Of a stretch of DNA of 39,216 nucleotides, positions 25,070-39,216 are shown in pieces (position 1 is the first letter of the stretch; every line of letters starts with the position of its first letter). The translations under genes and the position numbers were made by a program. The stretch comes from an uncultured Endomicrobiia bacterium. GTDB lineage: Bacteria > Elusimicrobiota > Endomicrobiia > DTEH01. Location: NCBI GenBank assembly GCA_938074745.1, contig CALJEJ010000035.1:1-39216 (forward strand), given 5' to 3'. Below the pieces are notes generated by a model. It was not told the origin of the DNA, did not search any database, and worked only from the letters and a program-made list of their open reading frames with translations.

Positions 25070-26530
25070 TTACACTTTTTTTTCTTCAAAATCAACAGGT
25101 AGATAAATAATAAATTTTGCTCCTTTGTTAACTCCTTCTGAATATACTGTGATTTTACCTTTATGATGTAAAATAATGTCTTTAGTAATAGACAACCCCA
25201 CACCAGCAAATTTTGTTTTATCTTTAGTAGTAAAATAAGGTTCAAAAATAGCCTCTAAAAATTGTTGTTGTATCCCACAACCTGTATCTTGAAATTCTAT
25301 TACCACATATTCTGAAGAACCGTTTTCAAGTTTTGTAATATACGTTTTTATTTGTAACAATTTTGGTTTTTCAGGGTTTATTTCTTCCATCGCTTGTATT
25401 GCATTATTTATAATATTAAGAAATGCTTGTTGTATATGTGGCAGTGAAATTTTTATTTTAGGAATATCATGACCAAAATTAATAATAGTTTCAATATTAT
25501 GTGCTTTTAATTCGCTATCTGCAATAAATAAAGTGTTTTTTATTACTTCGTGAATATCTTCTAAAGTATATTCATATTCTTTTTGTCTTGAAAACTGTAA
25601 CAATCTTGATATACTTTCACGACAACGTTTTGCAGCACGTTCTATTTTCTCCACATGCTCTCTTAATGGAGAGTTCAATGGAAGTTTTTCTAACAACAGT
25701 TGTGCTTGACCTAACACACCTACCAACGGATTATTAAGTTCATGAGCAATACCGCCAGCTAACTGGCCTATGTTTGATAATCTATCCATTTGCAAAATCT
25801 GTGTTTGGAAATTTTTTAAATTTTTTACCATCCAGTTGAACCCTTTAATAACTTCACAAAATTCGTCTTTGGAATTAAAATTTATCTCTCTATATTCACC
25901 TTTTGCAAGAAGTTTTGTTCCTTCTGACAATATTTTTAACGGTTTTATTAACGCTTTATAAATTTTTATAACAAAAATAACACTTGAAAATATTGACCCA
26001 ACTACAATTATTATACACAAAATTAAACTCACGATACTAATTTGAAAGATCTGTTTTTCAATTATATGTGCTTTTTTAGTATAAATATTACTTTTGTCTT
26101 CTACAATTTTTAAAATATTTTTATACAACGGCAAGAATTCTTCATCTATTATTTTAACTTTTGTATCATAATCTTTTTCATTAAAAATTTTGGTTACTAT
26201 TTCAACAAACAAGTTATACTGTGATAGAATATCTATTCCAGATTCTTTTTGTTGCCATTGGTTAACAAGTTCTACAGTTCGTGGAACAGTTAAATCAAAA
26301 TTTTCTTTCTCTTTTACATCGTGGAGTAGCATATAATAATCTACAATTTGTCGTTGTCTATTTAATAACTGTATTATTTCTGTTGTCAAATTAATTTCAT
26401 CTTTTAAAAGAACAAATTTTGTAAAATAATTTCTTAAGAAATACACTATTGACACCCAAAATAAGCATACTACAATTATTATTCCTAATAGTACTCCGAA
26501 GGCTACTTTTAATTTAGTTTTTATTTCCAT
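25070..26530 (-). CDS. Membrane-bound sensor histidine kinase with HAMP
   Basis: Two TM segments; GQLAGGIAHELNNPLVGVLGQAQLLLEKL (H box); DTGCGIQQQFLEAIFEPYFTTKDKTKFAGVGLSITKDIILHHKG. Confidence 0.92.
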   Translation of the reverse strand: MEIKTKLKVAFGVLLGIIIVVCLFWVSIVYFLRNYFTKFVLLKDEINLTTEIIQLLNRQRQIVDYYMLLHDVKEKENFDLTVPRTVELVNQWQQKESGIDILSQYNLFVEIVTKIFNEKDYDTKVKIIDEEFLPLYKNILKIVEDKSNIYTKKAHIIEKQIFQISIVSLILCIIIVVGSIFSSVIFVIKIYKALIKPLKILSEGTKLLAKGEYREINFNSKDEFCEVIKGFNWMVKNLKNFQTQILQMDRLSNIGQLAGGIAHELNNPLVGVLGQAQLLLEKLPLNSPLREHVEKIERAAKRCRESISRLLQFSRQKEYEYTLEDIHEVIKNTLFIADSELKAHNIETIINFGHDIPKIKISLPHIQQAFLNIINNAIQAMEEINPEKPKLLQIKTYITKLENGSSEYVVIEFQDTGCGIQQQFLEAIFEPYFTTKDKTKFAGVGLSITKDIILHHKGKITVYSEGVNKGAKFIIYLPVDFEEKKV

Positions 26531-26728: not shown

Positions 26729-27442
26729 TTATATCCTTGAAATAACAAGTTCAATACGTCTATTTTTAGCCCTTTTTTCTTCTGTATCGTTAGCACGTGC
26801 AATATCTGTAGAAAGTGTCACAGGTTTAAATTCGCCATATCCTGCAATAGTAAACCTTTCCGGAGGAATTTTTTTTACATTAACAAAATAGTTTAACACA
26901 GACATTGCCCTTGCAATAGACAATTCCCAGTTGTTTGCAAACTCTTTCGTATGAATAGGAACATTATCAGTATGTCCTTCAATTATAATTGTATTTGTTT
27001 CTGGTAGGGTAAGTAACATCTCTGCTACACTGTCCAAAACAGAAATAGCAGTTTCGTCCAGGTCTGCTTTACCTGAAGCAAACAATACAGCTTTTTCACC
27101 AAATACAACACGAATTTTCTGTGCTGAAATATTAACTTGAGCACCTTCTGCCAAACCTCGTTCTTGCATATATTTTTGTAATTTATCAGCAAATTCAGTT
27201 TCTCGTTCCTTTTTTTCTATTTCTTTTTTTAATTTGAAATCTATTTTACCAAGTTCTGCTTGTATTCTCGTTACAACTCTTTCATAATCAATTTCATGGC
27301 CATAATATGTATAAGCGTACAACAAAAAGAAAAATATCATTAAAAAAGTCATAAGATTGCCGTATGGCACTACCCAAGAACTAGTATCTGGCTGATTTTG
27401 TTCTTCGGAACTAAATATAGTTTTTATAAAATTCTTTTTCAT
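26729..27442 (-). CDS. MotB-like stator protein 2 (OmpA-type peptidoglycan-binding domain), Asn at the ion-carrier position
   Basis: SSWVVPYGNLMTFLMIFFFLLYAYTYYG; TIIIEGHTDNVPIHTKEFANNWELSIARAMSVLNYF. Confidence 0.88.
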   Translation of the reverse strand: MKKNFIKTIFSSEEQNQPDTSSWVVPYGNLMTFLMIFFFLLYAYTYYGHEIDYERVVTRIQAELGKIDFKLKKEIEKKERETEFADKLQKYMQERGLAEGAQVNISAQKIRVVFGEKAVLFASGKADLDETAISVLDSVAEMLLTLPETNTIIIEGHTDNVPIHTKEFANNWELSIARAMSVLNYFVNVKKIPPERFTIAGYGEFKPVTLSTDIARANDTEEKRAKNRRIELVISRI

Positions 27443-27443
27443 T

Positions 27444-28106
27444 TTATCTTTTTATAATCTTAATTCCGATACGTCTATTTTTAGCTCTATTTTCTTCAGT
27501 ATCATTTGGTGCAACAGGTCTATACTCGCCATATCCAACTGCAGACAATCTCGCCGGACTTATCTGATGATACCGAGAAAAATATTCTATTACAGAAAAC
27601 GCTCTTGCAGCGGAAAGTTCCCAGTTAGACTTGTATTTCCCACCAACTATAGGTACATTATCTGTATGTCCTTCAATAACAATTTCGTTTGGAATAGATT
27701 TTAATGTTGTAGCGACTTCGTCAAGGATAGTTTTAGCAGCATCTTTTAATTCTGCTTTACCAGAATCAAACAATACTGGCGAAGGTAGAGTAATAACTAT
27801 TTCTTCTTCTTTAACTTCCACTGTAGCAATATCTTTAAGTTTATCAGTTAACTGTTCTGTTTGCTGGTTGATTACTTGTTCTACTGTAGGTTTATCAGAT
27901 TTTTTCCCTAACTGTGCTAAGGTTGAGATAAGTTCTTGCCGTTTTACTGCGCTTAACCTTGTAAAAGCAAACAAAATTAAAAAAAATAATGCAAGGTTCG
28001 TCGTCATATCTGAATACACAGTACGCCAAGTGTTTAACCCTTGTTTAACTTCTTCTGATTCTATAACTTCTTCTTCAATAGGTTCTTCTACTTTATTTTC
28101 TGGCAT
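27444..28106 (-). CDS. MotB-like stator protein 1 (OmpA-type domain), canonical Asp retained
   Basis: NTWRTVYSDMTTNLALFFLILFAFTRL; EIVIEGHTDNVPIVGGKYKSNWELSAARAFSVIEYF. Confidence 0.9.
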   Translation of the reverse strand: MPENKVEEPIEEEVIESEEVKQGLNTWRTVYSDMTTNLALFFLILFAFTRLSAVKRQELISTLAQLGKKSDKPTVEQVINQQTEQLTDKLKDIATVEVKEEEIVITLPSPVLFDSGKAELKDAAKTILDEVATTLKSIPNEIVIEGHTDNVPIVGGKYKSNWELSAARAFSVIEYFSRYHQISPARLSAVGYGEYRPVAPNDTEENRAKNRRIGIKIIKR

Positions 28107-28113
28107 ATACTTT

Positions 28114-28878
28114 TTACCTTCTTTTTTGTCTCATTTTATATGCTAAGAATGCTTGTAACCGTCTACTTACAATAGATGGTATTTCACCTGCTTGTATTGC
28201 CAAAATTCCTTCAATTGCAACTTCTTTAATTAAAAGTTCTTCTTCGGTATATGCATTAAGTTTGTTCGCTATGGGTAAAAAGATAAAATTTGTTCCAAAA
28301 ATACCGTAAAATGTTGTAATTACTGCTACTGCCATTGAAGTACCTATTGCTTCTGGATTGGTTAAATTTTTCAATACTCCAACAACACCTATTAAAGTAC
28401 CTAACAGTCCAAACACTGGCGCATACGCACCCATACTACGAAAGACAGAATGTATCTGTTGATGTCTTCTTCTGATAAACGTGATTTCTTTGATAAGATT
28501 TTCTCTGACTATTTCTGGTGGTAACCCGTCAAGAACCATCTGTAATCCATCTACTAAAAAATGGTCTTTAATATTTGGTAACTCGTTTTGCAACGAATCT
28601 ATACCGGAACGTTTTGCTACTTCTGCAAGGTGAACTAATAAATTAATATACTTTTCCGCGGTCCAACGCCGTTGAGGGAATAATGCTAACATCATTGCTG
28701 CTGGTACACGTTTTAAGATTCTATATGGATAAGTTAACAATGTAGAAGCGATTGTTCCACCAAGAACTAATACTAAAGAAGGAAAATTGTATATAAGGTT
28801 CAGTATACCACCAACTTTGAACACATAATATACTGCAAACACGCCTAACGCTAACCCTACCAATGTCATCAAATCCAT
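28114..28878 (-). CDS. motA: MotA-like stator protein
   Basis: MDLMTLVGLALGVFAVYYVFKVGG; MGAYAPVFGLLGTLIGVVGVLKNL; AVITTFYGIFGTNFIFLPIANKL. Confidence 0.92.
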   Translation of the reverse strand: MDLMTLVGLALGVFAVYYVFKVGGILNLIYNFPSLVLVLGGTIASTLLTYPYRILKRVPAAMMLALFPQRRWTAEKYINLLVHLAEVAKRSGIDSLQNELPNIKDHFLVDGLQMVLDGLPPEIVRENLIKEITFIRRRHQQIHSVFRSMGAYAPVFGLLGTLIGVVGVLKNLTNPEAIGTSMAVAVITTFYGIFGTNFIFLPIANKLNAYTEEELLIKEVAIEGILAIQAGEIPSIVSRRLQAFLAYKMRQKRR

Positions 28879-28896: not shown

Positions 28897-30393
28897 CTAC
28901 TTTTTAGATTCTACAATTTCAGCTTCTACAGTAAGACTTTTTTGTCTTTCAAGTTGTTCTTTTACAATTTTACTACGTTCTATATTTATTTCTCCTGAAT
29001 TTATTAAATCACGGATTGTAGAGACTATTTTCTTTTGTTCATTTTTAATAACCTTTTCACCAATTTCACCTAACAAATCCATTTGTTCTGCTAACATTGC
29101 ACGACCACCTTCAGTTAAACAATCCATAACTTTGTTTTTTATTTCCTCTGGCGTATTTTTTAACGCTATTGCTAAAGATATTCCACGACGTTGTGTTTCA
29201 CGAATAATTTTTTGTAATGTTGGTTTATCCAAAAACAAAATGTCTTCAAACAAAAATATTTTTTCTCTAAGTTTTTCTGCCAACTGCGGGTTCTGAAAAG
29301 ATAACGTTTGTAATATATCTTCTTGAACATCTTTATCTGCTTGGTCTAACAATGACAGAAAATAATCTTCTCCACCAATACAATAATCTATTCTTGATTT
29401 AATACTCTGTTCAATTTCTTGAACTTCTTGTGGGTCAGGCAGTTTCACTGAAGCAAGTTCTAACGCTACTTTTGTTTGTGTTTTTCTATCCAACATTGAC
29501 ATAAATTCTGTAGCCAAATCTGACGGTAAATAACTTACCACGAGCGCTATAATTGTTGGTGTTTCATCTTTCAATAAATACCAGAGGTTTTTTAAGTTTG
29601 CTCTGTTGATAAAATCAAAATGTTTCTTGGTAGTTTCTTTTTCTTTTTTCCCACCAACAGTTAATTCCATTGTTCCACCCATACCACCAGCAGCAGGTAA
29701 TCCTAAAGGTTCAGTTCCGGGTAATAACCCTTGTTGCATCTGTCCAGTCATATCCATTTTTTGTGTTCCGGAGAGTCTTGCATCAGCGTCAATTCTTAAT
29801 TGTACAGCTTTCACAATTGTTTTAAAAAAATGTGTCACAGGACCAAACAAAAATAATGCTATTACTAAAATTATAAACGGTAAATACAAATGTGGTAAAA
29901 TTTGTTCCAATATTGCTTGTAATGTAGGAACTTTTTGAAACTCTATCCTGCTAATATTAATTGTATCTCCTCGTTCAAGGTTAAGATTTATAAGTGCTGG
30001 TAATTCAGATTTTATTCTTTCTAAAACTTTTGGCGAAATTGTGTTATCTACTGCTATGTTGATTACAATTTTTTCAATTTGTAGTTGTATTGGCAAATTT
30101 TGTTTTTGTTCTACAGGGATGTATGAATAGGTAACACCTGGCAAATATTCTTCTTCACGTAGATATACTCCTGGGTAAGCCTCTGTTGTAGTAGCAGTTT
30201 CTTGTGTTGGAAGTTTCAGATATACATTAGGCACAACAACAAAATTTTTACTCCCTATAATTCGTTCTACAATAAGTTCAACTTTTTCTTGAATATTTTT
30301 TTCAAGTTGTATCTTTTCTTCGTTTAAAGACAAACTGTAAATACCAGCAGTTATAAAAAACAAAATTGTTATAGTAAAAAATTTTTTTTTCAT
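28897..30393 (-). CDS. FliF (C-terminal periplasmic ring domain only) - FliG fusion
   Basis: Signal peptide; IQLQIEKIVINIAVDNTISPKVLERIKSELPALINLNLERGDTINISRIEF (FliF/YscJ C-terminal type), one TM, then FliG middle/C domains: ETPTIIALVVSYLPSDLATEFMSML... LAEKLREKIFLFEDILFLDKPTLQKIIRETQRRGISLAIALKNTPEEIKNKVMDCLTEGGRAMLAEQMDLLGEIGEKVIKNEQKKIVSTIRDLINSGEI. Confidence 0.85.
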   Translation of the reverse strand: MKKKFFTITILFFITAGIYSLSLNEEKIQLEKNIQEKVELIVERIIGSKNFVVVPNVYLKLPTQETATTTEAYPGVYLREEEYLPGVTYSYIPVEQKQNLPIQLQIEKIVINIAVDNTISPKVLERIKSELPALINLNLERGDTINISRIEFQKVPTLQAILEQILPHLYLPFIILVIALFLFGPVTHFFKTIVKAVQLRIDADARLSGTQKMDMTGQMQQGLLPGTEPLGLPAAGGMGGTMELTVGGKKEKETTKKHFDFINRANLKNLWYLLKDETPTIIALVVSYLPSDLATEFMSMLDRKTQTKVALELASVKLPDPQEVQEIEQSIKSRIDYCIGGEDYFLSLLDQADKDVQEDILQTLSFQNPQLAEKLREKIFLFEDILFLDKPTLQKIIRETQRRGISLAIALKNTPEEIKNKVMDCLTEGGRAMLAEQMDLLGEIGEKVIKNEQKKIVSTIRDLINSGEINIERSKIVKEQLERQKSLTVEAEIVESKK

Positions 30394-30436: not shown

Positions 30437-30877
30437 CTATTTTTCCCGAACAATATAATCACTTTTTGACGAAATTTTGCTGTCTATTCTTAACAACAGT
30501 TCGCGGTTAATACGACTTTCTTCTACAACTAATTGTGCAATATGGTTTGCAATTTCTATTTGTCTATCAATTTTTTCATCCATTTTCTTTAACATTTCAG
30601 TCTGTCTATTTAGCATCTCAGTCTGTTTGTTTAACATCTCGGTCTGTTTATTTAACGTTTCAGTCTGACGGATAACAATTTCTTTAATTCCTTTTGTAGT
30701 TTCAGCTAACTCTTTTGTAGTTTCAGCCAACCCTTTTGTAGTTTGTGCTAATTCTTTTGTAGTTTGAGATATCTCATACACAAGTTTTCTTGTCCCGTTA
30801 AACACAAACAACGCTACACCACCTACCGAAGCTACTGTCCCTATGAATGTTATTATAGACACAGTTATAGTATCCAT
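30437..30877 (-). CDS. Membrane-anchored heptad-repeat coiled-coil protein
   Basis: N-terminal TM (VSIITFIGTVASVGGVALFVF) then (TTKELAQ)x4 and (LNKQTEM)x4. Confidence 0.75.
   Translation of the reverse strand: MDTITVSIITFIGTVASVGGVALFVFNGTRKLVYEISQTTKELAQTTKGLAETTKELAETTKGIKEIVIRQTETLNKQTEMLNKQTEMLNRQTEMLKKMDEKIDRQIEIANHIAQLVVEESRINRELLLRIDSKISSKSDYIVREK
30591..30674. repeat. Four 21-bp coding repeats (LNKQTEM heptads)
   Basis: aacatttcagtctgtctattt-type units repeated in 21-bp register. Confidence 0.85.
30691..30774. repeat. Four 21-bp coding repeats (TTKELAE/Q heptads)
   Basis: cttttgtagtttcagctaact-type units repeated in 21-bp register. Confidence 0.88.
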
Positions 30878-31021: not shown

Positions 31022-32641
31022 TTATTTCTGTTGTGTTTTAAGACTTTCTTTTACTCGTTTTATAAACTCAGCCAACCTCGTATCTTTTTTATCCAAAGAC
31101 AATGCTTGTTCCCACATTTTTATTGCTTTTTCTTTTTCTCCCATAGCATAAAATGCAGAACCTAACTTTTTATATGCTTCAGCATCTTCAGGTTCAAGAA
31201 ACAAAATTTCGTCACATAAAGCTACTACACGTGCATAATCTTTTTTCCTAAACGCAATTAACGCTTCATTATGTTTCTGGTCGACAATAGTTCTACCGCT
31301 GGGCAACTCAATTTTTTCTGCTCTGATGCCAGTTTTTTCTTCTATTTTTGTCAACAACCGTGCTAAAGTTCTGTTTTCTGGTGATTTGCTTAATGCATAA
31401 CTTAAAAGTTTTACTGAATTAACATTATCTCCATTAATAAAATATCTCACTCCACGTAGAATTTTTGAATTTATATCTCCTTGTGCAGGTATAGTGGTAT
31501 AAAACGACGCTACTAAACTTACACGGTCTATATAAATATCTACATCGGTTGCCTCAGGTAAAACTTCTTTTGCTTTGGTAAATTTTGACAATGCCTGTTT
31601 AATATACCCACGAGTTGCATCTCTTATACCTTCTTCTAACAATGTTTGGAAATACTTCTTTTTTTCTTCTTCTGTTTGCAACTTTGCTTCTACTATTTCT
31701 ATATCTTCAGCAGTAGGCATACCTTTTATTTTTTCAGCCCAAAGTTCTTCTAACGTTTTGCCAAATTTGAAATCTAACGATATTCTGTGTGTGCTCCCAA
31801 GATAATCTTGAAGTACCAGCGCATAATCAAAATTTATGTTTTTATATATTACACCAAAACCTAATGTTGTTTCAAGATTGTTTCGTCCGGCACGTAGGTT
31901 AAACATTTTCCAAATAGATGTTTCTAATCCAAAACTGTAAGTATCCAACAATGAAGAACCTGTTTTTCGTTTACCTACATCAATACCTAAAATAAAAGTT
32001 TCAAAAGGTTTTATCCCTAAACCAAAGTTTACTCCTAAAGGTAACTTATCTTCTGTATCTGACAATGTCAAAGTAAATAAATTATTGAAATTTGCACCTA
32101 ATGTTATAGCAGAAGAAACAAGATAAATAATACCAATGTTTGTCGTAAAAAAGTTTTGTGAATATGTATAAAGAGAGTTAGAAACGAATTTTGCATTACC
32201 ACCAGTATAAAATTTCCGTATTATTTCCCTACCCCAGCAAAAGTTGAACAATACACTGTTAAACGAAAATTCGTTGCCAGTAAACTGGTTATATTCATTA
32301 GTTTCTTTAGCACCCCAGGAAGTTAGATGAGAAACACCTACTGCAAAATTGCCATAATCAACTGTTGGATGGACATAACCAAAATAGTTCATTATAGTAT
32401 TTTCGTAAAGAATTGCGGTAGCAAAACCTACCTCTTTACGGTTTATCATTCCTAATAACCCGCTGTTTAAATAACTGCTGAACACGTCAGCAGACAATCC
32501 TGCATAAGTGTTACCCATAGCGTTCACTCGTGCACCTAAAGGATAATTTAATATTGATGTTGTTTCCACTGCTACAATAATCCAACTTAGAAATAAAGAA
32601 TATATAACAAACCCTAATTTTCTTTCTACAAAAAATTTCAT
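31022..32641 (-). CDS. PorV/UPF0164-like outer-membrane beta-barrel fused to C-terminal TPR
   Basis: Likely start MKFFVERK at 32641; NYPLGARVNAMGNTYAGLSADVFSSYLNSGLLGM; C-terminal ALIAFRKKDYARVVALCDEILFLEPEDAEAYKKLGSAFYAMGEKEKAIKMWEQAL. Confidence 0.78.
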   Translation of the reverse strand: MKFFVERKLGFVIYSLFLSWIIVAVETTSILNYPLGARVNAMGNTYAGLSADVFSSYLNSGLLGMINRKEVGFATAILYENTIMNYFGYVHPTVDYGNFAVGVSHLTSWGAKETNEYNQFTGNEFSFNSVLFNFCWGREIIRKFYTGGNAKFVSNSLYTYSQNFFTTNIGIIYLVSSAITLGANFNNLFTLTLSDTEDKLPLGVNFGLGIKPFETFILGIDVGKRKTGSSLLDTYSFGLETSIWKMFNLRAGRNNLETTLGFGVIYKNINFDYALVLQDYLGSTHRISLDFKFGKTLEELWAEKIKGMPTAEDIEIVEAKLQTEEEKKKYFQTLLEEGIRDATRGYIKQALSKFTKAKEVLPEATDVDIYIDRVSLVASFYTTIPAQGDINSKILRGVRYFINGDNVNSVKLLSYALSKSPENRTLARLLTKIEEKTGIRAEKIELPSGRTIVDQKHNEALIAFRKKDYARVVALCDEILFLEPEDAEAYKKLGSAFYAMGEKEKAIKMWEQALSLDKKDTRLAEFIKRVKESLKTQQK

Positions 32642-35600
32642 CTTATTACACCTATTTTCCATCTTTTTTGTTGTATACTACCAGTTTCATCTTTAGCTTC
32701 TATTACAAGAATATACATCCCTGTAGAAAAATCTTTACTTTCAGGACAATCTACAAAATTTGCTCCTTGTTTACCTCCATCGGAACCAGAAACAATTTTT
32801 CGTTGCCAAACAAGGTTGCCAAATAAATCAAATATTTTAAGGTTCACATCTGAATCTTTAGTTAGTATATAACTTATCTTTAGAACTGTTTTTCTGACAT
32901 CGCACGGATTAGGGAAAGTAGTTAAATTTGTAATTATATCTGAAGGTAATTGAATAACCACTGGCGAAGATTCTTTCGTCCAGTCAGAATATAAACCTGC
33001 TACATTCATTGTTCTTATACGATAATAATAAAATTTTTCTTTTTGTTTACCTTTCATTCTGAACTCTATATTAAAATTATAATCTTCAAGGTTATACCCC
33101 AGATTTGAAAACAAAGTTTTAAAATTCACAACTTCTACATTTGTAGGGTTCATTGGAGTAGTTACAAAAGTGTGTGTAAGTATCAAATCGTCATTTATCA
33201 CATTACGTGTAGAAAATATTATTTTATTTCCTGAAACAGTTTTTAAAATTTTGTTTGTATAGACTGCTCGGAATAGGGCCGTAAAATCAAGGTCTATACT
33301 TTGTACTTCAGTCCATAAAATTTCATTTCCTACTTTTTCCTGCAATATTATTTTTGATACTAAACTTTCTTGGTCGTCGTAATATTTACAGTTCAACCAA
33401 AACATATCATTACTTGGTGAAGAACCTTGAGGTTGTTGTGGTATTTCTGGTGGAGTACAGTCTACTAAAATTGTGAAATAATTTAGTCTTATGAACCCAG
33501 CGTTACTTTCTGATTTTACCCACACATAATAGATATTATTATGTTGCAAATTCAATCCTGAAAATGTATATTCTTGAGGTAAACCTATTGGAATAAACTT
33601 ATTCAAATCTGGATTATCATTTAAACTTCGTGGTTTATATGAAGCCAATCCTACATATCCTGTTTTTATTCCACCGCCTTCCGGTGCAACCGAGTACCAA
33701 CTAAATTTTATCTCGTTAGTATTAGGAATATAATACACAATATTTTCTACTTCTTTTCCCGTATCTATTCCTCTACCTAAAGGAACTGCAGGTGTAATTA
33801 TAGGTTTTGTAGGAGTTCTTTTATCCAACAAATTTATTTGTGAGGAGGAAAAATAACTAAACGGTTTCTGTTTATTAGGTAACGAATAATAAAATCCTGT
33901 CGGGTCAACACCAAAACCTATTGTTTTATCCGGTATTGCCTCTTTGTTAAAATCAAAAACTATAAATATTCGTGATATTTCGTCAAGAACTAATACAGGG
34001 TCGTATTGTAAATTTCCAGGGTTGAAAAATTTTAGTTCACACTTGCCAGAACTGTCAAACACGCCTGTAGAAACTAACACGTCAGTATAAGTGGAGAACC
34101 GTAAATCGCCATTGTCTAAATATACCTTTACCTGTTTCACAGTAGAAGAAGCTTCCGAAGTACCTTCGTGCGAAATTATCAGTTTCTGTAGTGTAGCATC
34201 ACAAAATGCTAACAAATCTATTTTTGCTATAAGTACATCTTGTTCATACAAAGCTGCTTCTTGTGGTGCTAACGAAGTAATTTCTGTAGAAACTTCGTCA
34301 GGCCAATCTGTTATAGTAAGTTCTGGAGAAACTAATGGAAAGTTTGCATTATCTACTATATCAGCACCACCTAAAGTGAAATATGTCGCAGTGGATAAGA
34401 CAAGTTTCAGTTTTTCTTCAGGAGTAGCGTTCTTGGGAATATAACATGTTATAAAATATGTCGCGTACTCGCCTAAACGTTCAATTTTGTCAATACGTTC
34501 CGGTTGAGAAAAAATAATTATCGCTGAATTGTTCTCAAACGTGCTACCACCTAATTTAATGTCTGAAGAATCTAAATCACCGTCACCGTTTACATCACGC
34601 CATACTTCTACTACTGTAGCGGAACTGCGGTTAAACCGTGTATACCTATCTGCTGCAGGTGTCCCTGAAGTAATCGTAGATTTATCAACACGTAACCGAG
34701 ACCAATCCGCTACACCTGCGTCTATTGATACACCGATAGGTAAAACTATCCTACGTTCACTTTGATAAATTTTTTCCGGTATACGAGCAATAATATCGCT
34801 CAACGGTTTCACATAAACAATATCTCGGGATACTTCTACACGAACTGTAGCTGATTTAATTTCGTCAACTATATCACTCAATTGCGACTGGATAGAATTC
34901 ACCCCTTCAGCGTCAAGCAAGAAGTATGTCGTGGTTAACATTGTTTTAATTGCAAACTTCACTTCTTGCTCTTCAGAAGAATATAACGAATCTGGCGAAA
35001 CTGTAACTACTACATAAAAGTATTTTACTGTTTTATCGGTAATTGTCTGAACTTGTGAAAATTCTAACAATGCAATACCGCCAGAAAATCTCGCAGAAGA
35101 CAAAAGGTTTTCAGGGAAAATATCATCTTTGTAAATTTTTATACTTTTAATATCCTCGTCACGAATATTTACTCCTGTGAGGTTCACTCTTAACTTCCTA
35201 AACGGCGATTCTGACTTGTCAGTTCTTAACCCAAACTTCATCATTATTCCTGAATCACCTTGTTCTAAAACAGAAGTTAGTTGATACCCGCTATCACTAA
35301 TTAAATATGTCCGAGTATCAACTTCTACTAACTGGACATTAACCACAGGAGGGATTACTGTAAAATATTCTAAAGTAGTCGTATCCTTGTAAGTAATATA
35401 TGGTAGATTATTTCGTGCAAACGCTACCCCTTGACTTATATTCAAACAACCAAAATCAAATTTTAGTGCAAAAGTTGTATCCAAGGGCGCATCTACTGAA
35501 AGGTCTATAACAACATCGTAATAATATGTAGCAAATGTTACTGAAGGTTGTGGAGTTAAATTTATTTCCGCACGGGAGTTTATAAATACTGAGGAACCCA

Positions 35601-38600
35601 ACAATTGACCACCTCGGAAAATTTTTATTGCATTGATATACTGGTCATCTAAAGTACCTAATTTGTCTACTATGACTTTAGCAATTTTCGTAGGAACTGC
35701 AGTGTCATAAGCAAACCGAACACCTAACTGTGCAACAGGTTGGTTTGTCCTCCCTTGGACAATTTTTGTAGCGGTGGTTCGTGGAGAAACTACTGTCGCG
35801 TTCCATAAATAATTTGGTGACTTACCTGACATAAAAACTTTTTCCCAACTTTGACCTAAATCTTTTGAAAGATAAATTGTTCCGCTGCTGCCTACTACAA
35901 CAATTTTTGTTGGGTCTATAAACCTGCAAGAATAGAATGTAAGATTTTGTGCCTGAGGTGGTGAAATATCTGTAAAAGTTGTTCCACCATCTGAAGTTAA
36001 ATAAACTTTACCACCACTACCACATAAAATACCTCGTGTTAAAGAAATAAAATGTAAACTATAAAATGTTACTGAAGTAGAAATTGTTACTGAAGTAAAA
36101 CTGTTTGCTCCGTCAGTAGTCTTTAGAAACAACCCGTTTGCACCACATAAAAAACCGTTATTAGAATCAATAAATTGTACTTTATACAAATCCGTAGCAC
36201 CTATGGGTAAATTTACCAAAGTAAAACTGTTTGCTGCGTCAGTTGTCTTTATCAAAGTAGAATTTTTCCCACAGATAAAACCTGTGTCATTAACAAAACT
36301 TATAGAATACAAATTTTCTGTTACTGGTGAAGTGATAGGAAACCAAGTCTCAGCTGTATCAGTTGATTTATATATAACTCCGTTATTACCACAAAGAATT
36401 ATTGTAGAAACAGTAACAAAATTTACATCGTTTAATTCTTCAGTACCAACTTGTGTCTGTTGATATGTAATAAACGAATTTGTTGATTTTATCACTAAAC
36501 CGTTTTTACCACAAACAACACTCGCAAAATTGTTAGAATCTATACTGTTGAACTTTTTGTTAACATCGTTGTTATAAATTTTTGTGAACCACTTATTTCC
36601 CGAATCTGCAGTAGCTTTTAAAATCCCTTTATCTCCTACTACATAACCGTTATTATTATCTACAAACAATACTGATTTATAATTTTGTTCCACTACTTCG
36701 GAAATTGTTATATACGCCTCTCCTGCATAGAAATAATTTCTTACTACAACACTTTTTCTCCCAGCATCTGATAAAGTAAAAGTTACCGAAGAAGGTTCTA
36801 TTAATATTCCCGAAATACTACTGGATAGTACTGCTACACCTTCAAAATCTACTGCTATATTATTTAATTTATCCAGTGCAACAATATAACACGGTTTGTC
36901 TACTTGAATCTGTGCTGAAGGGTCAAACGACCATCTTCCTTGAGGATCAATACTCGTAGCTACAGCAAACGAAACTGCTTTCCCGGGAAGAACCGTATGT
37001 TGTTGTGAAACCGTAAGCCAACCTTGTTCACCATTCCACTTTTCTAACGCTGCAAGTTCGTCTACATAAATAGTGGGATTACCAGAATTCTCGTCTCTAT
37101 AATAAAAAGAACCTTTAGAATACCCAGGTAATATATTTAACCTGTTTATACCAAAATTTACCCCGTCTAACGAAAACTCGCCTTTGGTAGAATCTGACCG
37201 TAACTCACATTCTCCACCAAATTGAGAAATTATTTCATCACCATCTTCGTCTATACATTGAACTTCAATTTTCCCAGAAGAATCGCCTGCATAAAATGTA
37301 TATGGCAAAGTAGTAAATTTCAATGTATGAACTTTAGAACTACGTGAACGTAACAAAAACAGGTTATTAACATTTGTTGCAACCAAAGACCTATTACCTT
37401 CAGCATCTTCAGTACGGATAGAAAACCAGTATGTAAGACCAGGAACAAGACCTGTAATAATACATTCCTGAGGCTCTCCTGCAGAAACATTAAAAGTAGA
37501 AATTATAACCACACCGGAAACGTTCCCAGTAGAAGTTTTTATTTCAGTAATATTTTCAAACTCTTGTTCTGTAGTAATTATCACTCCTGCACGGTATTTT
37601 ATTATATATTTACCAGACACAATATTCCCTGAAGTAGCATCTTCAGTTGGTGCTGTCCATTGAAGTTTCACTGTTCCTTCTTTACCCTTACCTCGTTGTA
37701 CAACCAGATCTGTAATCTGTGATGGACAACCAACAAATTTGAACGGTCCTAAAAGTTGTTCTACAGGAGAGGGGATATTCTCATAATTATAACTGCGAAC
37801 AATAAAATACCAATTCTCACTGTTTTCCGTGGCTATAGGTAAATATTCCGGTGGTAAACCTGAAACTTCCGCACCACCTCCTAAAGTGTGTGTAGCGGAC
37901 GATGGGTACCACAAAACAGCAGAACTTTCATCCCAACTAGAAGTTGTCTTCCAGACAACTTTGTAATATGCAACCCGACCTACCCCAGTAGAGTATTCTG
38001 AAATAAACGAAAATGTTTGTGTCCTGTACCATACATCAGTAGAAATTGATATGTAAGTATAGGAAGTCAAAAATGCGACGAACTTTTCAGCTTTTACTGC
38101 AGGTGGTAGAGGATGTGTGTATTTGTAATACGGTGCATCTTGACCATTTATATTTCTTGCAGCGTTACCACCGTTGTCGTTATATGCGACAACATACCTA
38201 CCGTATTGCGTGTTCGCAGAAAGGTTCTCTTCATACCAAACAGTTGTATCCGGCGAAAGTTCCGCAATTAATCCTTCAGAAGTAGAAGTTATAACCAGAT
38301 ACCCACCATCTTTGTTATACGGCCGTGTGTCAGAATAAATCCTGTATCCACTGAGGTAATACGTAGGAGTTGATGTTACCCATGACCATTTTATTGTAGT
38401 AGAAGATATTACTTCACCTTTGAACTGAACAGCTCGTAACGGTAACGGTTCAAATTCAAACCCTATCTTGTCAACTACTGGCGTTGTACTACCGTCGGAA
38501 TAGAATTCTATTTTGTATTGTACATATCTTCCCCGACCTATTATATTAGACGGTTCAGGATACGGGTTCATAATGAGTTCTCTCCATACCGGAAAAGTAG

Positions 38601-39216
38601 AAAGTTTAACAAACGAAGTATTACTTGTCCTTGCATAAACTTTTATACTTTGCCCATTTGTTGTAACAGTCCATGAAGCATAGACAAAATTTGTGTTATC
38701 ACTATAAGTATCATACACCTCGGATAAGAAATAGCCATATTGATAATAAGGAGTATATGATTCTATACTTTCTATACTAACAGTAGGTTCTGGTGTTGTA
38801 TATTTACGAACAATTATTTTATCCACCCAACCAGAGTCATAACCATAACTACCACTAGCGTCCTTGGTATACTCCCATTGGAGGTTTCTTATCCCAGCGG
38901 AAAGTACTGTAGAATACAGGGTCCAACCTGTTTCGCCTCTAATTCTACTTTTTACCTCACCATCTACACGAAATCTCAGTTGGTCTTCCGCATTACTTTC
39001 ACAGGACACCATCCAGTAAAATTCTATCCTTGCCTGCATTGAAAGGTTTATACTTGTCCTTATATATGTCAGTTGATTATGTGTAATAGAACCGCTAATA
39101 ATATCATACTGTCCTTCGTAAACATTTACTGTCCCTGTAGACTCTTTACCCTTATATAAAGGTTCACTACTAACATGAATTCTGAAATATGGTGGATCAC
39201 CACCTCTCACCCACGG
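32638..39216 (-). CDS. Giant surface/secreted protein (N-terminus off-window): FN3-like domains, YCF48-like propeller, beta-sandwich repeats, C-terminal T9SS/FlgD-Ig-like domain
   Basis: Frame open to the window edge (P-W-V-R-G-G...). C-terminus FPNPCDVRKTVLKISYILTKDSDVNLKIFDLFGNLVWQRKI...FSTGMYILVIEAKDETGSIQQKRWKIGVIR. Confidence 0.85.
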   Translation of the reverse strand, partial: PWVRGGDPPYFRIHVSSEPLYKGKESTGTVNVYEGQYDIISGSITHNQLTYIRTSINLSMQARIEFYWMVSCESNAEDQLRFRVDGEVKSRIRGETGWTLYSTVLSAGIRNLQWEYTKDASGSYGYDSGWVDKIIVRKYTTPEPTVSIESIESYTPYYQYGYFLSEVYDTYSDNTNFVYASWTVTTNGQSIKVYARTSNTSFVKLSTFPVWRELIMNPYPEPSNIIGRGRYVQYKIEFYSDGSTTPVVDKIGFEFEPLPLRAVQFKGEVISSTTIKWSWVTSTPTYYLSGYRIYSDTRPYNKDGGYLVITSTSEGLIAELSPDTTVWYEENLSANTQYGRYVVAYNDNGGNAARNINGQDAPYYKYTHPLPPAVKAEKFVAFLTSYTYISISTDVWYRTQTFSFISEYSTGVGRVAYYKVVWKTTSSWDESSAVLWYPSSATHTLGGGAEVSGLPPEYLPIATENSENWYFIVRSYNYENIPSPVEQLLGPFKFVGCPSQITDLVVQRGKGKEGTVKLQWTAPTEDATSGNIVSGKYIIKYRAGVIITTEQEFENITEIKTSTGNVSGVVIISTFNVSAGEPQECIITGLVPGLTYWFSIRTEDAEGNRSLVATNVNNLFLLRSRSSKVHTLKFTTLPYTFYAGDSSGKIEVQCIDEDGDEIISQFGGECELRSDSTKGEFSLDGVNFGINRLNILPGYSKGSFYYRDENSGNPTIYVDELAALEKWNGEQGWLTVSQQHTVLPGKAVSFAVATSIDPQGRWSFDPSAQIQVDKPCYIVALDKLNNIAVDFEGVAVLSSSISGILIEPSSVTFTLSDAGRKSVVVRNYFYAGEAYITISEVVEQNYKSVLFVDNNNGYVVGDKGILKATADSGNKWFTKIYNNDVNKKFNSIDSNNFASVVCGKNGLVIKSTNSFITYQQTQVGTEELNDVNFVTVSTIILCGNNGVIYKSTDTAETWFPITSPVTENLYSISFVNDTGFICGKNSTLIKTTDAANSFTLVNLPIGATDLYKVQFIDSNNGFLCGANGLFLKTTDGANSFTSVTISTSVTFYSLHFISLTRGILCGSGGKVYLTSDGGTTFTDISPPQAQNLTFYSCRFIDPTKIVVVGSSGTIYLSKDLGQSWEKVFMSGKSPNYLWNATVVSPRTTATKIVQGRTNQPVAQLGVRFAYDTAVPTKIAKVIVDKLGTLDDQYINAIKIFRGGQLLGSSVFINSRAEINLTPQPSVTFATYYYDVVIDLSVDAPLDTTFALKFDFGCLNISQGVAFARNNLPYITYKDTTTLEYFTVIPPVVNVQLVEVDTRTYLISDSGYQLTSVLEQGDSGIMMKFGLRTDKSESPFRKLRVNLTGVNIRDEDIKSIKIYKDDIFPENLLSSARFSGGIALLEFSQVQTITDKTVKYFYVVVTVSPDSLYSSEEQEVKFAIKTMLTTTYFLLDAEGVNSIQSQLSDIVDEIKSATVRVEVSRDIVYVKPLSDIIARIPEKIYQSERRIVLPIGVSIDAGVADWSRLRVDKSTITSGTPAADRYTRFNRSSATVVEVWRDVNGDGDLDSSDIKLGGSTFENNSAIIIFSQPERIDKIERLGEYATYFITCYIPKNATPEEKLKLVLSTATYFTLGGADIVDNANFPLVSPELTITDWPDEVSTEITSLAPQEAALYEQDVLIAKIDLLAFCDATLQKLIISHEGTSEASSTVKQVKVYLDNGDLRFSTYTDVLVSTGVFDSSGKCELKFFNPGNLQYDPVLVLDEISRIFIVFDFNKEAIPDKTIGFGVDPTGFYYSLPNKQKPFSYFSSSQINLLDKRTPTKPIITPAVPLGRGIDTGKEVENIVYYIPNTNEIKFSWYSVAPEGGGIKTGYVGLASYKPRSLNDNPDLNKFIPIGLPQEYTFSGLNLQHNNIYYVWVKSESNAGFIRLNYFTILVDCTPPEIPQQPQGSSPSNDMFWLNCKYYDDQESLVSKIILQEKVGNEILWTEVQSIDLDFTALFRAVYTNKILKTVSGNKIIFSTRNVINDDLILTHTFVTTPMNPTNVEVVNFKTLFSNLGYNLEDYNFNIEFRMKGKQKEKFYYYRIRTMNVAGLYSDWTKESSPVVIQLPSDIITNLTTFPNPCDVRKTVLKISYILTKDSDVNLKIFDLFGNLVWQRKIVSGSDGGKQGANFVDCPESKDFSTGMYILVIEAKDETGSIQQKRWKIGVIR

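Follow-up and report, generated by a model that had tools for sequence, protein, structure and literature searches.

A fused FliF-FliG rotor protein with a MotAB stator in Elusimicrobiota, possibly the motor of a type IX-like surface machine

We analysed a stretch of 39,216 bp, here called the window, from an Endomicrobia MAG (G000; 1.52 Mb, 93.9% complete), to which the nearest public record, JANXCA010000024.1, shows 72% identity. The ORF of interest starts with ATG on the minus strand and encodes a protein in which a FliF-like part and a FliG part are joined (Table 1). It lies in a tight operon and is followed by MotA, MotB1 and MotB2. The top NCBIfam match of MotA is the flagellar-type MotP/MotA (1.7e-61), and the features of a MotAB stator are present, namely the MotA channel protein, the transmembrane Asp of MotB (in MotB1; Asn in MotB2) and the OmpA peptidoglycan domain. 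At this position of MotB2, Asn is found in the window and several relatives, and Asp in others. The sensor histidine kinase located downstream is a possible regulator, and kinases recur close to several loci of the window's type.

The PorV-family protein encoded upstream scored 80.9 bits against the NF033709 cut-off of 90, which its paralogue at another rotor locus of G000 (the long type described below) passes with 107.7 bits. The giant secreted-type protein has a propeller (PSII_BNR/sortilin), fn3 and a C-terminal T9SS-like sorting domain, the last of which matched Por_Secre_tail below the cut-off. Between the PorV-TPR and rotor genes lies a 146-aa ORF (30437-30877, minus strand) whose N-terminus is hydrophobic and whose 21-base tandem repeats code for 7-residue repeats with a coiled-coil look; it was not seen at the equivalent place in relatives.

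Table 1. Features of the rotor locus, with positions in the window
Feature	Position	Strand	Basis
FliF(RBM3)-FliG(M,C) fusion rotor protein, 498 aa	28897..30393	minus	profile searches
N-terminal hydrophobic segment, residues 1-23, signal peptide or TM1	30325..30393	minus	hydropathy
RBM3-like periplasmic domain, short collar-type insert, about residues 24-156	29926..30324	minus	profiles and model
TM helix, about residues 165-183, then conserved FLFGP	29845..29901	minus	hydropathy and relatives
FliG middle domain, residues 269-335	29389..29589	minus	Pfam PF14841, 2.6e-16
ETPT replacing the FliM-contacting EHPQ motif	29554..29565	minus	sequence and alignment
FliG C-terminal domain with torque helix, residues 363-471	28981..29307	minus	Pfam PF01706, 2.3e-25
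MotA stator subunit, 254 aa, 18 bases past the rotor gene	28114..28878	minus	Pfam MotA_ExbB, 2.7e-25; NCBIfam
MotB1, 220 aa, ion-carrying Asp kept (D33, YSDMTT)	27444..28106	minus	profile and alignment
MotB2, 237 aa, Asn at the Asp position (N29, YGNLMT), OmpA domain intact	26729..27442	minus	profile and alignment
Sensor histidine kinase (HAMP, HisKA, HATPase), downstream	25070..26530	minus	profile search
PorV/PorQ-family outer-membrane protein, C-terminal TPRs, 546 aa	31022..32662	minus	NF033709, 1.3e-22
Giant secreted-type protein, 2190 aa as called to the window end	32638..39210	minus	domain searches
Sorting-tail domain (IFDLFGNLV...GMYILVIE...KIGVIR)	32641..32904	minus	Por_Secre_tail, 9.2e-4; family profile A4

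From the N- to the C-terminus, the fusion consists of a signal peptide or first TM, a FliF-like RBM3, a TM, a linker, FliG_M and FliG_C. Both FliG domains were over the Pfam cut-off, and the closest solved structure was Thermotoga FliG (1lkv, 2.5e-30, over residues 257-473). The NCBI equivalog for FliG (TIGR00207) gave 126.9 bits and its cut-off of 226.7 was not reached. No separate FliG_N was found in the rotor, where the FliG_N model merely cross-matched the M/C region (282-364) with 21 bits, below its cut-off. The Pfam model YscJ_FliF_C was sub-threshold on the window's rotor alone (0.011); it was matched by 20 of the 31 rotor family members (best 9.6e-6), with one member over the cut-off at 25.6 bits. 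An RBM3 profile of 24 sequences matched solved FliF chains in PDB (4.9e-7 and 4.5e-5) and was aligned by hhalign (E 6e-6) with the RBM3 of E. coli FliF, residues 220-432, and the rotor family HMM found the genuine flagellar FliF of a phylum member, G216, at 6e-16 over RBM3 only. The secondary structure predicted for the N-terminal part, with low confidence, was helix-strand-(insert)-strand-helix-strand, which is the order of an RBM.

Thus, the FliF C-terminal-like domain proposed in the initial annotation, followed by one TM and the FliG middle and C-terminal domains, was borne out by the profile searches. Structure prediction, suggested there as a check, supported the FliG half alone: the AlphaFold2 model, made from two sequences, was weak (pLDDT 53), and Foldseek gave significant matches to FliG (1lkv, 1.6e-11) and FliF ring matches with E values of at least 0.2. 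The annotation had also described the N-terminal parts of FliF as missing. This holds for RBM1 and RBM2, for which the ~140 aa from the first hydrophobic segment to the TM leave no room, but the absence of the N-terminal TM is unsettled, as the hydrophobic segment could be either a cleaved signal peptide or an uncleaved equivalent of FliF TM1.

An assembly error that removed RBM1/2, or a truncated gene, was ruled out because relatives have the identical architecture. Between the window and its relative at locus L031, pN/pS was 0.24 for the whole fusion, 0.12 for FliG_MC (86% identical, with FliG_C within the best conserved stretch of the rotor) and 0.13 for MotA. Judging from these ratios, the fusion is under purifying selection and its function is maintained. 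At the level of sequence, an RBM3-only FliF fused to FliG is confirmed as a real and conserved architecture.

In the alignment, the torque positions K264, R281, D288, D289 and R297 read K, G, E, Q and G in the window's rotor. Across the family, K264 is K or R in most members and the acidic character at 288/289 is kept in nearly all, whereas position 281 mostly carries Gly, Ala or Asn in place of Arg and the Arg at 297 is lost, so that the earlier description of the torque domain as well preserved was correct only in part and overstated. The EHPQ motif, whose ETPT replacement had been placed correctly, is degraded throughout the family, with its Glu retained in nearly all members. In E. coli, R90 of the stator contacts D288/D289 of the rotor, and E98 contacts R281 (PMC12505986); in the MotA family studied here, the R90 column is mostly Lys or Arg and the E98 column Gln or Glu. 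As read from these columns, the MotA-FliG contact is altered and not preserved intact. Strict co-loss of MotA E98 and FliG R281 was considered and dropped, because MotA E is paired with FliG G in L068 and several long-type pairs, and MotA Q with FliG R in the flagellar L112 pair.

We searched for the rest of the flagellum in 61 relatives. None had FlhA of the export gate, FliM/FliN of the C-ring or the RBM1/2 domain (PF01514) over the cut-off, while control genomes matched in each case. Since FlhA, FliM/FliN and an RBM1/2-type FliF are all missing, the system is not a flagellum; these results also fit the earlier inference that the housing of the export gate and a canonical C-ring are absent. 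FliG_C was detected in 15 of these relatives and, phylum-wide, in 121 of 296 Elusimicrobiota genomes (60 of 90 genera), fused in nearly every locus inspected. FlhA was detected in 3 of the 296 genomes (G081:C2, G216:C78 and G247:C208; L112 and L113). In the two of these that were inspected, G081 and G216, fliF and fliG are separate genes of classical-looking clusters, which, although misbinning is not excluded, conflict with a paper that denies flagellar machinery to the entire phylum and calls all its members non-motile (PMC11257099). G216 also has a fused rotor in another locus with its own MotAB, and the fused system is therefore distinct from the flagellum. One paper raises the question of what filament-less rotor proteins do, and no description of an Elusimicrobiota FliFG-MotAB system was found in the open-access literature (subscription papers were not covered).

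Three kinds of locus recur, here referred to as short (the window's type), long and type 3. In the short type, the fusion is mostly 470-530 aa and comes with MotA (near 16 of 22 loci) and usually two MotBs. The long type has a fusion of about 600-680 aa with C-terminal TPRs. Beyond Endomicrobia, in other classes, it has its own linked MotA-MotB; the long-type MotAB of Endomicrobia is encoded elsewhere in the genome and is closest to that linked version. G000 has one short and one long rotor copy, and the long-type MotAB was not found in it, possibly through its incompleteness. The long-type rotor gene is followed by genes for one or two large coiled-coil proteins that have no TM (~600-2100 aa), and such genes accompany it in all 21 loci; of these proteins (c4/c5; L063 298-8624), one has a Pro-rich N-terminus and one a C-terminal TPR. 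Type-3 loci (L088, L091, L119 and L122) encode an RBM3-TM-FliG_N-like-FliG_M-FliG_C fusion, two unknown or TPR genes, MotA (4 of 4 loci) and a single MotB. The FliG_N-like extra stretch was seen only in these relatives, and type 3 retains R281 and MotA E98. The initial annotation gave no strand and had not noted that FliG_N is lost, how widely the rotor is spread over the phylum, that it has paralogues or that it lies in a PorV/sorting-tail context.

In the FliG_MC tree, the long clade is firm across the phylum (99/99), as is the short clade of the window (100/99), and the split between fused and flagellar FliG has weak support (56/84). Some members depart from the three types. A FliG_MC-TPR protein without RBM3 or TM (L086 9336-10376, G024:C15), which adjoins parB, looks from its domains like a soluble derivative of the long type. 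In family f8, the short-type rotor genes (L071 and L072) are preceded by a sensor kinase and a double-receiver response regulator, an order that suggests two-component control; in G024, a short-type MotA-MotB-MotB set is on another contig (L141). Very long FliG frames in other classes (L128, 966 aa) look spurious in their N-terminal part, where the stretch before the true start is low-complexity Arg/Pro/Gly.

The neighbourhood of the rotor genes resembles a type IX secretion context. A PorV-family/TPR gene lies immediately upstream of the rotor in 20 of 21 long and 10 of 22 short loci; it is missing from L064 and L065, the two closest relatives of the window's short locus. At type-3 loci, a stricter cut removed the weak PorV labels, because the PorV model also reacts to TPRs. 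Genes with sorting tails are near 17 of the 21 long loci, and a tail ending in KIGVIH or similar is common to giant and small secreted neighbours of both short and long loci. Searched against PDB, the sorting-tail profile matched PorU and FlgD, and it had 11 matches in G000. A SprA homologue of ~1750 aa was found in 47 of the 61 relatives, including G000 (9.6e-26) and G024 (6.6e-49), with the G000 protein scoring 89 bits, below the curated cut-off of 200. In nearly all Endomicrobia it adjoins two paired, mutually related genes (in G000:C39; L101 1-5232), and this set occurs also in Endomicrobia lineages without the motor. Family f3, which is Endomicrobiaceae-like, has SprA homologues and no FliG, so that the SprA translocon does not strictly require the motor. 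PorV and sorting-tail proteins are numerous, so their adjacency could also reflect a general surface function. In Bacteroidota, the T9SS is powered by the GldLM motor (PMC13104615; PMC10994853); the GldM profile matched none of 20 genomes and no control genome either, hence it proves nothing.

We are confident that FliFG-MotAB is a real, conserved and non-flagellar rotor-stator, and it appears to be part of a flagellar motor put to another use. Domain architecture, synteny, conservation across the phylum and the lack of flagellar export and C-ring genes were observed; that a ring assembles, that it rotates and, most of all, what it drives are inferred, with no direct evidence of rotation, of a ring or of secretion. 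Many copies of the fusion would assemble through RBM3 into a ring in the inner membrane, with FliG_M/C as the torque track beneath the membrane. Given that FliF and FliG form one chain, we propose that FliG_N, the FliF C-tail and FliM/FliN are unneeded for coupling. Such a rotor is mechanically possible, as a Salmonella FliF-FliG fusion mutant is motile, with defective chemotaxis, and full-length fusions assemble rings (PMC6079021). MotA with MotB1/MotB2 would form the stator, anchored to peptidoglycan by the OmpA domains, and a mixed MotB1-MotB2 dimer, if formed, would have at least one ion-carrying Asp. Without an export gate and C-ring there is no known way to build a filament, and the lack of FliM leaves no CheY-type switch of the known kind, so that one direction of rotation is the simplest expectation. 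The turning RBM3 ring may drive an outer-membrane apparatus of type IX kind, made of PorV-family proteins, the SprA homologue and giant sorting-tail proteins, in work analogous to that of GldLM, powering the release or movement of surface proteins. This explanation as a whole, which is entirely in silico, is one that we favour by a little. That the output is a type IX-like surface machine for secretion or gliding could go either way, and that FliFG-MotAB is its power unit in much of the phylum, in the place of GldLM, is a tentative suggestion that we hold with some doubt.

It is less likely, yet conceivable, that the motor is real and its output is not type IX-like, being either a cytoplasmic target, such as the long type's coiled-coil proteins and TPRs, or a Tol-Pal-like upkeep of the envelope. 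The long type always adjoins coiled-coil proteins without TM and carries TPRs itself, and some short loci have no PorV nearby; the PorV-TPR genes immediately upstream and the sorting-tail genes, at nearly all and most long loci, respectively, point outward. Perhaps MotA-MotB1/MotB2 is instead a stand-alone ion-driven machine for which FliFG is a non-rotating docking scaffold or sensor. The loss of R281 and R297 and the sensor kinases near several short loci would be in keeping with this, but the position of FliG_C in the best conserved part, the low pN/pS of FliG_MC, the K or R at 264 in most members and the flagellar-type MotA make it improbable. A functionless degenerate remnant of a lost flagellum, to which the absence of other flagellar genes and the three phylum members retaining FlhA (FliG clusters being seen in two) might point, was rejected as very improbable given the purifying selection, the paralogues with their own stators, the consistent operons, the spread over two-thirds of the genera and the coexistence with a flagellar cluster in G216.

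The preferred reading, a non-flagellar rotor driving a type IX-kind apparatus, can be compared with known systems. Like the Agl gliding motor of Myxococcus, the window has two B-type subunits. Agl (AglRQS) also uses a MotAB-like stator without a flagellum (PMC13104615); on the other hand, no FliG-type rotor is described for it, and AglRS belong to a non-flagellar ion transporter group (PMC12505986). With the flagellar FliF-FliG and MotAB, the system shares RBM3, TM, FliG_M, FliG_C, MotA and a MotB with Asp and an OmpA domain. It differs in being a single chain and in lacking RBM1, RBM2, FliG_N, FliM/FliN and the export gate, and the window differs further in the loss of EHPQ, R281 and R297 and in its two MotBs, one with Asn for Asp. 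Artificial or mutant FliF-FliG fusions of Salmonella and Vibrio are likewise one-chain rotors that form rings (PMC6079021; PMC11481574), but they are full-length and lie within, or were made from, a complete flagellum. The sporulation protein SpoIIIAG has an RBM-type ring domain (weak profile match, 0.0015), with no FliG part and no stator. The Bacteroidota type IX/gliding machine (GldLM, GldKN, SprA and PorV) has in common, on matches that partly fall short of the curated cut-offs, PorV-family proteins, a SprA homologue and sorting-tail proteins, as well as a nearby ion-driven inner-membrane motor, which in Elusimicrobiota is of the FliFG-MotAB kind.

The finding defines half of a motor, conserved and accompanied by its stator, with paralogues and with gene neighbours that hint at a driven target. 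Its minimal rotor (RBM3 and FliG_MC) may allow torque to be studied in the absence of export gate, C-ring and switch. The finding is also relevant to whether a rotor-stator pair works, or arises, independently of the export apparatus. It further calls into question the view that Elusimicrobiota are without flagellar machinery and non-motile throughout (PMC11257099).
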